Shown here piece by piece: positions 36,262 through 37,787 of a DNA stretch of 64,000 nucleotides. Source of the DNA: an uncultured Methanomassiliicoccus sp. (lineage in GTDB: Archaea > Thermoplasmatota > Thermoplasmata > Methanomassiliicoccales > Methanomassiliicoccaceae); the NCBI GenBank assembly GCA_944319735.1, contig CALUEU010000001.1, positions 124,001 to 188,000 of the forward strand, in the 5' to 3' direction. Every line of letters starts with the position of its first letter. The stretch's first letter is position 1. The notes under the pieces are model-generated. The model saw only the letters and a list, made by a program, of their open reading frames with translations. It was not told where the DNA came from and ran no database searches. Made by a program: the position numbers and the translations under genes.

Positions 36262-36269
36262 TTTTATAT
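36262..36269 (+). promoter_or_regulatory. TATA box for the EF-Tu-like gene
   Basis: TTTTATAT is centred about 27 bases before the ATG at 36293, the spacing for a leaderless transcript. It falls inside the longer frame that begins at 36251 and so argues against that start. Confidence 0.55.
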
Positions 36270-36292
36270 CCTCCTGTGCTTACTTATCGGAT

Positions 36293-37234
36293 ATGTCCAA
36301 TCTTAATGTAGCTGTAATCGGCCCTGCTGACTTTGCTCGTGAATTAGGCAAAAAAGGAACGGTTTCAGATATTACTCTTTATGATTTAAAACAGGGAACA
36401 GATACTGTTACGTTTATAGAAGCAAGCAAGTATCCAGAACGTCTTGCTCCCTTATTTTTTGCTGTTTCCATGGCAGACAGTGCAATGGTGGTTATCGAAG
36501 AAATTAATGCTCAATTGGGTGAGTGCATAGTCATGCTTCATGCTGCTGGAATTTCTCACGGATATATAATTCTTAAAAACTATCTCACACCTGAGCAGAT
36601 AGCACCGCTTATTAAAGGTACAGTTCTTGAGTCATATTCAATTGTAAACGAAGATATGGTCGCTTTGAGAGAGCAGTTTTTGAATGATGCCAGAACATTA
36701 CAGAATGAAAGTGATGGTGCGTGCTCCATCCCGATTGATCACTTTTTCAATGTTAAAGGTGTAGGGACTGTTGTTCTAGGATATGTTGCAGCAGGAAAAG
36801 TTTCAAAGCATGAAGATTTGAAAGTCCTGCCTACAGATAAAACAGCTCAGGTTCGTTCAATCCAGAAACACGATGATGATTATGATGAAGCATTCAAAGG
36901 GGACCGTGTAGGGCTGGCTCTTAAAAATATCACTGTAGAAAGTCTTGATAGAGGAGATGTGCTTACTTCAGACCCCAGAATTAAATGCACATCTAATATA
37001 GAAACTAAGTTGGAATTGGTCCCTTTCTGGAAAAACCCGATTAAAGAAGGAATGGTTCTTCACCTTGGACACTGGATGCAATTTATCCCTTCACGAGTTG
37101 AAAATATTTCTGATGAAGGAAAAATAAAGCTAATTCTTGAAAAATCTATGATTCATCTGCCGGGTGACAAAGCCGTAGTAATGTACCTGGATGGAGGTAA
37201 ACTTAGGATTGTAGGATCTATTTCCCTCCTATAA
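36293..37234 (+). CDS. EF-Tu/SelB-like protein with degenerate GTPase domain
   Basis: The C-terminal two thirds match elongation-factor domains II and III: IPIDHFFNVKGVGTVVLGYVAAGKV, KAQVRSIQKHDDDYDEAFKGDRVGLALKNI and DRGDVLTS are close to SelB and EF-1A. The N-terminal part keeps the fold but has lost the nucleotide motifs. VIGPADFARELGKKG stands where GHVDHGKST should be, with no DxxGH and no NKxD. It is therefore a pseudo-GTPase relative, about 313 residues. It may bind tRNA or ribosomes, or an aminoacyl end, without GTP hydrolysis. Related proteins are known in other archaea. Confidence 0.85.
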   Translation: MSNLNVAVIGPADFARELGKKGTVSDITLYDLKQGTDTVTFIEASKYPERLAPLFFAVSMADSAMVVIEEINAQLGECIVMLHAAGISHGYIILKNYLTPEQIAPLIKGTVLESYSIVNEDMVALREQFLNDARTLQNESDGACSIPIDHFFNVKGVGTVVLGYVAAGKVSKHEDLKVLPTDKTAQVRSIQKHDDDYDEAFKGDRVGLALKNITVESLDRGDVLTSDPRIKCTSNIETKLELVPFWKNPIKEGMVLHLGHWMQFIPSRVENISDEGKIKLILEKSMIHLPGDKAVVMYLDGGKLRIVGSISLL

Positions 37235-37307: not shown

Positions 37308-37787
37308 ATGAAAATGAGTCTTGAACAAATGATTGAAGAAGACCATAATCTGCTCAGAAGCGGCATGGATGCAGTTGCAGACACCAGTATTGAAGACGTA
37401 GATGAACGCCTAGAAATGTTTGCAGAGATTGCTTCCAGACTTTTTGCTCATGAAAAGGCTGAACAGGAAACAATCCATGCCCAGATGAAGATGTATGATG
37501 AAACTAAACCACTTGCACTTCTTGCAGAAGAGCAGGAAAGAGTTGCAAGAGTCTTAGCAGTAGAGCTCAAAGATGTTAAGTTGGATGATGAGTTATGGCT
37601 TCCTAAATTCCTAGCTCTTCAGGGGCTCTTATTACAGCACATGTCATTTGAAGAAGATTCAATCATGCCTTTGGCAAAAAAGATGTTAGATCAGGGCACA
37701 ATAAATCGCCTTGGCATTGACTTTGAAAGGCATGAAAAAGAAAATTTCAAGCAGTCCGAAATGGTATACCAAAAAGCCAAAGAATGA
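37308..37787 (+). CDS. Hemerythrin-like HHE domain protein
   Basis: This 159-residue four-helix protein has histidine/acidic sites in the hemerythrin order: EEDHNLLRSG near the N terminus, FAHEKAEQET in the second helix, LLQHMSFEEDSIMP in the third and FERHEKENF at the end. Such domains carry a di-iron centre that binds oxygen or nitric oxide or stores iron. The start may be ATG 37308 or 37314. It lies 45 bases before the XPD gene. Confidence 0.85.
   Translation: MKMSLEQMIEEDHNLLRSGMDAVADTSIEDVDERLEMFAEIASRLFAHEKAEQETIHAQMKMYDETKPLALLAEEQERVARVLAVELKDVKLDDELWLPKFLALQGLLLQHMSFEEDSIMPLAKKMLDQGTINRLGIDFERHEKENFKQSEMVYQKAKE

Follow-up and report, generated by a model that had tools for sequence, protein, structure and literature searches.

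A divergent archaeal SelB-like protein of an uncultured Methanomassiliicoccus lacks GTPase motifs and keeps a putative aminoacyl pocket

Introduction

The archaeal SelB-like family (aSelBL, also named 'EF-Pyl' or aEF-X) was described by Atkinson et al. in 2011 (PMC3037878), and its divergent branch is marked by a P-loop deletion of 4-5 residues and by the loss of 10-14 residues later in the G domain (PMC3037878). The conservative branch includes MM1309 of Methanosarcina mazei (PDB 3wnb, 3wnc, 3wnd; also listed in Atkinson 2015, PMC4342817), for which Yanagisawa et al. reported structures with nucleotides and assays in 2015 (PMC4329189). MM1309 bound GTP at 0.43 uM, and hydrolysis was not detected. 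The former switch I and switch II segments of MM1309 touch its domains 2 and 3; that of switch I is a strand in contact with domain 2, and part of it lines the aminoacyl pocket (PMC4329189). MM1309 also raised the half-life of Cys-tRNA(Cys) from ~80 to 300 min, in the one aSelBL binding experiment that we located in the literature (PMC4329189). Cys-tRNA was the sole aminoacyl-tRNA in these binding tests, and the authors consider that each of the 20 amino acids could perhaps fit the pocket (PMC4329189), so that any specificity is putative even for MM1309.

Two further systems are comparable. Archaeal SelB (aSelB) has His192 and Arg247 in its pocket core, and Arg247 was called universally conserved (PMC3037878). 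Tsr1, a ribosome-assembly factor of yeast, is an inactive mimic of translational GTPases (PMC4895721). The aSelBL family and its probable ligand are thus already in print, while the order Methanomassiliicoccales does not appear in Table 1 of PMC3037878. Three points of the present analysis were not found in the available parts of PMC3037878 and PMC4329189, namely how aSelBL is placed in Methanomassiliicoccales, including a SepRS test on 300 genomes; statistics on the contact sites of the divergent branch; and a pocket swap in a sister family of the same order.

Identification of the Gene and Its Family

The original prediction described an elongation-factor relative with a lost GTPase site in the window (the whole 64,000-nucleotide stretch of DNA analysed here), and this observation is right. 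The ORF, which encodes 313 amino acids and ends with a stop codon at 37232-37234, is an ordinary member of the published aSelBL family and belongs to its divergent branch (Table 1). Its nearest named relatives are Methanomassiliicoccus MAGs (64-67%). ATG was present at the matching place in 28/28 full-length relatives (of 31 named loci, L057, L061, and L062 being partial), which makes a longer, TTG-started frame unlikely as the gene and the ATG at 36293 the likely start.

Table 1. Features of the aSelBL locus, in window coordinates.
Feature	Position	Strand	Basis
aSelBL (divergent branch) CDS	36293..37234	+	3wnb E 1.1e-35 with single sequence, 5.5e-66 with profile; Z 37.3
Putative TATA-box-like TTTATATC	36263..36270	+	7/8 match to TTTATATA; consensus only
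Domain I, G-domain-like fold without nucleotide motifs	36293..36700 (residues 1-136, approximate)	+	Model, structure match, motif scan
Site of missing P-loop, shortened by five residues relative to MM1309	36320..36334 (residues 10-14)	+	3wnb profile alignment; G1 in 0/68
KKGTVSD, former switch I	36350..36370 (residues 20-26)	+	K20 67/68, T23 66/68, D26 68/68
Tyr47-Pro48, at place of switch II catalytic His	36431..36436	+	Y47 64/68, P48 68/68
Domain II, putative tRNA 3'-end and aminoacyl pocket	36701..36970 (residues 137-226, approximate)	+	Pfam 158-225; contact conservation
Asp149-His150, pocket core (Asp191-His192 of aSelB)	36737..36742	+	D149 68/68, H150 60/68
Arg205, pocket core (Arg247 of aSelB, Arg234 of MM1309)	36905..36907	+	62/68; other six His
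Domain III	36971..37231 (residues 227-313, approximate)	+	Profile, model, structure alignment

Domains II and III were predicted to be of the EF-Tu/SelB type, in agreement with the profile matches and with the 3wnb fold. Pfam GTP_EFTU_D2 matched residues 158-225 (51.4 bits, cut-off 30.3); in the same region a domain 4 model matched below its threshold, and Pfam gave no match in the N-terminal half of the protein. The best NCBIfam model was selB, over residues 120-297 (9.2e-24; 84.1 bits, cut-off 242.25). In sequence searches of the PDB, 3wnb was the top match of the single sequence as well as of a 29-row profile (226.4 bits, followed by M. maripaludis SelB with 135.3 bits and EF1A with 81.9 bits). 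Structure prediction, which had been proposed as a check, was run with AlphaFold2 and yielded a confident model (mean pLDDT 94.5, pTM 0.91). Foldseek ranked 3wnb first for this model (7.8e-28), and VIA-align matched the two at Z 37.3 and 1.8 A over 309 residues with 32% identity; the runners-up were SelB, aIF2gamma, and EF1A chains (Z 30.5 and below). Model residues 1-313 align with 3wnb as far as its residue 350; against 4acb, the chain of which has 452 residues, the structural match stops at 377. In the structure alignments with 3wnb and 4acb, the SECIS-reading C-terminal extension after domain III is absent.

In sequence and fold, the protein is therefore nearer MM1309/aSelBL than aSelB, EF1A, or aIF2gamma. 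Switch I has the form KGTxx (K21-G22-T23, with G22 in 61/68 rows of the conservation alignment), and E/DPxxx replaces DxPGH at switch II (E43); the proline of the latter site is P44 in 63/68 rows, but the window protein has Ala44. Relative to 3wnb, the gap at the P-loop is 5 residues and those later in the G domain are 5, 4, and 11 residues, which places the protein in the divergent branch. Identity as SelB, the selenocysteine elongation factor, was rejected, as the score is under the NCBIfam cut-off, the motifs and the C-terminal extension are absent, and SelD is not above cut-off in the genome; EF1A/EF-Tu was rejected as well, as neither the GTPase motifs nor a cut-off score were found and the EF1A of the genome is encoded elsewhere.

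Like MM1309, the window protein has a three-domain fold, a KKGTxSD segment, no C-terminal extension, YP where the catalytic His would stand, and identical residues at 10/14 mapped contact positions; MM1309, however, keeps its P-loop (Arg for Lys) and binds GTP, whereas the window protein has deletions at the P-loop and the guanine loops. It shares both deletions of the divergent aSelBL proteins as described in the available part of PMC3037878 (4-5 residues at the P-loop and 10-14 later in the G domain), and nothing essential differs. aSelB of Methanococcus maripaludis (4acb, 4ac9; Z 30.5) shares domains II-III and the Asp-His-Arg pocket core but is a GTPase and carries a C-terminal extension. 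The EF1A encoded by the host genome (L002/L085) is similar in domain II, at 27% identity across residues 137-224, but has GHVDHGKS, DAPGH, and NKMD. Tsr1 can be likened to it by description only, as an EF-Tu/SelB-like architecture without GTP-site residues (PMC4895721), and differs in being a ribosome-assembly factor.

Loss of the Nucleotide Site

The P-loop, DxxG, and NKxD had been reported as absent, and they are indeed missing from the GTPase places. A pattern scan found neither GxxxxGK[ST] nor [NT]KxD in the window protein, and the one DxxG that it contains, DRVG at 204, falls in domain II. None of the 68 full-length rows, among them the window protein, has GxxxxGK[ST], and none has DxxG at residues 38-52, where switch II would lie. 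DxxG occurs within the first 145 residues of 40/68 rows, mostly at 83, and [NT]KxD in a single row (L073), within the KKGTxSD segment and away from the G4 place. As a control, the patterns recovered G1, G3, and G4 (GHVDHGKS/T, DxPGH, NKxD) in L085 (EF1A), L086, and L088 of the same genome, and G3 and G4 in L089, a fourth GTPase.

A hidden nucleotide motif was also searched for and not found: MM1309 is the closest solved structure of the confident model, and in the profile alignment its P-loop and guanine loops align to deletions. The P-loop is five residues shorter in the window family than in MM1309, and the gaps of 5, 4, and 11 residues cover stretches with the MM1309 guanine contacts Arg101, Asp103, and Thr136, which were taken from PMC4329189 and placed on the alignment by residue count. 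Since the P-loop and the guanine-contact loops are deleted, nucleotide binding, and not just hydrolysis, is most likely lost in the window protein, as judged from its sequence.

Conservation of the Aminoacyl Pocket

Conservation was calculated over the 68 full-length rows, leaving out partial sequences (L057, L061, L062, L080), identical duplicates, and L002 (EF1A); L082 and L083, stretches picked without a known match, had none. The mean share of the top residue was 0.584 for the whole protein, 0.578 for domain I, 0.659 for domain II, and 0.511 for domain III. The conservation of domain I matches that of the protein as a whole, so that the domain is under selection and not decaying. A decaying pseudogene was ruled out by the open frame together with the even conservation of domain I.

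The contact set consisted of 14 mapped residues listed at the aminoacyl pocket and tRNA ends in PMC4329189, with His170 unmapped. Ten of these 14 positions are conserved at a level of at least 0.90, compared with 44/313 overall (hypergeometric P 7.5e-7, 68 rows), although this and the following P values are too small because related rows were treated as independent. Without position 209 (a conserved Ala; Arg238 in MM1309) the count was 9/13 (P 4.6e-6), and within domain II, 9/9 contact positions reached 0.90 against 28/90 of the domain (P 9.8e-6). A looser initial cut of 0.895, which was chosen to include Gly22 (61/68), gave 11/14 (P 1.2e-7). The variable contact columns are Ser27 and Met32 of the pocket and Lys55, a 5'-end contact that corresponds to Ala52 in the window. 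Across the aligned sequences, the aminoacyl pocket itself, beyond the RNA-facing surface, is near invariant.

Proposed Function of the Protein

We propose, with a probability of roughly 60%, that divergent-branch aSelBL binds and protects an aminoacyl-tRNA independently of nucleotide, with Cys-tRNA(Cys) as the likeliest ligand and with domain I serving as a fixed arm; the proposal combines the sequences, the predicted model, and the analogy to MM1309. With the GTP site lost and the charged-tRNA pocket kept, the protein probably shelters charged tRNA instead of performing GTP-driven delivery. Passive binding of aminoacyl-tRNA had been suggested in the original prediction, and it fits both the conserved pocket and the published protection of Cys-tRNA by MM1309.

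In aSelBL, a paralogue of aSelB, domain I may have lost its role as a GTP switch and become a fixed structural arm. The nucleotide loops are deleted in the sequence, and the three domains are placed in the predicted model as in MM1309; Thr23, Ser25, and Asp26, counterparts of published MM1309 contacts, would lock domain I on domain II via Arg205, His150, and Arg220, giving a permanently closed shape for which nucleotide is unneeded. By comparison with MM1309, one aminoacyl-tRNA, for which Cys-tRNA(Cys) is the likeliest candidate, would then be held by domain II at its 3' end and its small aminoacyl group; the hydrolysis of this tRNA would be slowed and its thiol perhaps shielded. EF1A, the ribosome, or a process outside translation are candidate destinations of the bound tRNA. 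If true, the EF-Tu scaffold can serve as a plain aminoacyl-tRNA chaperone without a nucleotide switch, which would explain why many archaea retain a broken GTPase.

Several observations weigh against this role, including Ala52 for Lys55, Ala for Arg238, the variable Ser27 and Met32 columns, and the lack of a cysteine or tRNA neighbour in the loci compared. Moreover, MM1309 is conservative and binds GTP, so that its tRNA behaviour may be GTP-dependent and does not necessarily extend to the divergent branch.

A clearly less probable explanation is that of an alternative elongation factor, which would deliver aminoacyl-tRNA to the ribosome without GTP hydrolysis of its own, an option kept open by Yanagisawa et al. 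(PMC4329189). Of the three domains, domain II shows the strongest conservation in the 68 rows, and both of its patches that touch 16S rRNA are well conserved in aSelBL (PMC3037878); however, a protein with neither nucleotide site nor catalytic His has no known way to time release. A role outside translation, as a tRNA- or RNA-binding adaptor, e.g., in tRNA processing or charged-tRNA sensing, appears slightly more doubtful again. It would agree with the loss of the nucleotide cycle, with neighbour clustering, in which a conserved translation gene was not found beside aSelBL, and with a weak match of the Pbp11 tRNA-binding model (9/29 relatives at 1e-5 or better; window 1.3e-4), but the near invariance of the aminoacyl pocket itself speaks against it.

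Distribution and Partner Genes

The host genome (Methanomassiliicoccaceae, 99.55% complete) possesses one aSelBL, the second match being EF1A. It also encodes CysRS (6.5e-168) and PylRS (279.2 bits, cut-off 178.15). The best matches to SepCysS (23.6 bits, cut-off 365) and SelD (88.6 bits, cut-off 125) were below cut-off in this genome, as were all matches to SelB; these three models also give below-cut-off matches in control genomes. A match of aSelBL strength (E 1.6e-34 or better, tallied from the table) was found in 60/65 genomes of the order scanned, and the remaining 5/65 had EF1A-level matches only. The latter genomes (G160, G208, G223, G274, and G277) are 95-99% complete, and the congener of G274, G156, has aSelBL; loss of the gene in these five is possible.

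In this lineage, the presence of aSelBL follows neither that of pyrrolysine nor that of the SepRS route, and the same was stated for other archaea (PMC3037878, PMC4329189). Service to pyrrolysine (EF-Pyl) is very unlikely. Apart from the PylRS of the host, a weak excess was seen among the 44 genomes of the order present in both scans (G172, whose PylRS fragment lies at a contig edge, was excluded), where aSelBL occurs in 25/25 PylRS-positive and 14/18 PylRS-negative genomes (Fisher P 0.025, uncorrected for kinship). The pyrrolysine link was dropped, as 14 PylRS-free genomes keep aSelBL and the pocket swap described below does not track PylRS; moreover, the MM1309 pocket is too narrow for pyrrolysine (PMC4329189), and the mismatch in distribution has been published before (PMC3037878, PMC4329189). 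Membership in the tRNA-dependent cysteine pathway (SepRS/SepCysS), despite the association of aSelBL with high-cysteine methanogens (PMC3037878), is refuted for this lineage, barring a SepRS of another kind, as SepRS was found in 0/300 genomes of the class at E 1e-20 (the controls M. jannaschii and M. acetivorans being positive), yet aSelBL is widespread in the order, and SepCysS of the host genome is below cut-off.

Pocket Variation in a Sister Family

In family f2 of the same order, His150 is replaced by Ser together with Arg205 by His in 40/41 genomes examined (L025, L026, L028-L031, L092-L101, and L103-L126). Forty-three f2 genomes were scanned, and 41 were counted, since G208 had no match of aSelBL strength and G259 was not fetched; L131, the same place as L100, was removed before counting. 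The 66 other rows keep His150 in 64/66 and Arg205 in 65/66, the sole Arg205 exception being a truncated sequence. Only positions 150, 205, and 211 separate f2 from the others (at 90% vs 85%), and two of them belong to the pocket core. The swap does not track PylRS, as the window genome combines PylRS with His/Arg, and G005 and G164 have Ser/His without PylRS over cut-off.

The swap was probably one event in one ancestor, and f2 may be Methanomethylophilaceae, which is a guess. As read from the sequences, it is a pointer to changed specificity. It is a speculative extension, in our view rather improbable as a whole, that the divergent aSelBL proteins act as tRNA sheaths, nucleotide-free and amino-acid-specific, and that two pocket residues can re-set their specificity. 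If true, f2 proteins would hold another aminoacyl-tRNA than the window protein, and the natural swap between f2 and window-type pockets would be a ready-made specificity test within one order. The sole f2 exception is L102 (G125:C19:72300-74400, genus code g11), which has Glu150 with Arg205 and an altered segment, KKGSESD; its genome has no PylRS match over cut-off, and its congener is G259.

Genomic Context and Phylogeny

The well-placed TATA box of the original prediction was recovered as a consensus match, TTTATATC, which lies ~26 bases 5' of the ATG; an equal match to TTTATATA occurs at 1.0% of 20,000 random window positions, and the spacing fits a leaderless mRNA. The gene had also been called monocistronic, which was not borne out, as a same-strand hemerythrin gene starts 73 bases downstream. 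This small hemerythrin-domain gene (37308-37787) is possibly cotranscribed with aSelBL.

Other neighbours in the window are DP2, NOG1, NUDIX, Lrp/AsnC, XPD-like helicase, and ferredoxin-like genes. Directly beside aSelBL, these window neighbours and the hemerythrin gene were found in none of the relatives, where loci L003-L031 give a limited view of only ~1.5 kb. At distances of up to kilobases, NUDIX and/or AsnC lie upstream of aSelBL in L033-L036 and L038, and an XPD-like helicase lies downstream in L006, L036, and L038. Clustering of 416 neighbouring ORFs revealed solely local partners, with some loci being the same contig under two ids, and operon context was rejected as a general clue to aSelBL function. 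By labels read from the sequence, a transporter-like ORF directly precedes aSelBL in 6 loci at 5 distinct places, an ATPase-like ORF lies downstream in 7 loci at 4 distinct places, and an ACT-like ORF lies upstream in 6 loci. No neighbour gene hinting at cysteine or tRNA work was found beside aSelBL in the window or in the loci of relatives. In L023, L026, and L028-L031, aSelBL lies closely 3' of an ACT-domain-like ORF of ~140 aa, which a ligase-like gene precedes; judging by this arrangement, the three are possibly an operon.

The tree, another of the proposed checks, was built from the 68 aSelBL rows alone, to the exclusion of MM1309, aSelB, and published aSelBL proteins, with a midpoint root for drawing only. 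The window falls in a 10-row group with Methanomassiliicoccaceae rows (support 100/99). Seven rows are titled Methanomicrobiales or a member of it (L039, L043, L045, L048, L049, L051, and L052); MAG titles can be wrong, and transfer of aSelBL between methanogen orders is possible on the tree. Six of the seven form one group (82/74), and all seven lie within a 46-row clade (100/98) together with Methanomassiliicoccales and family f8.
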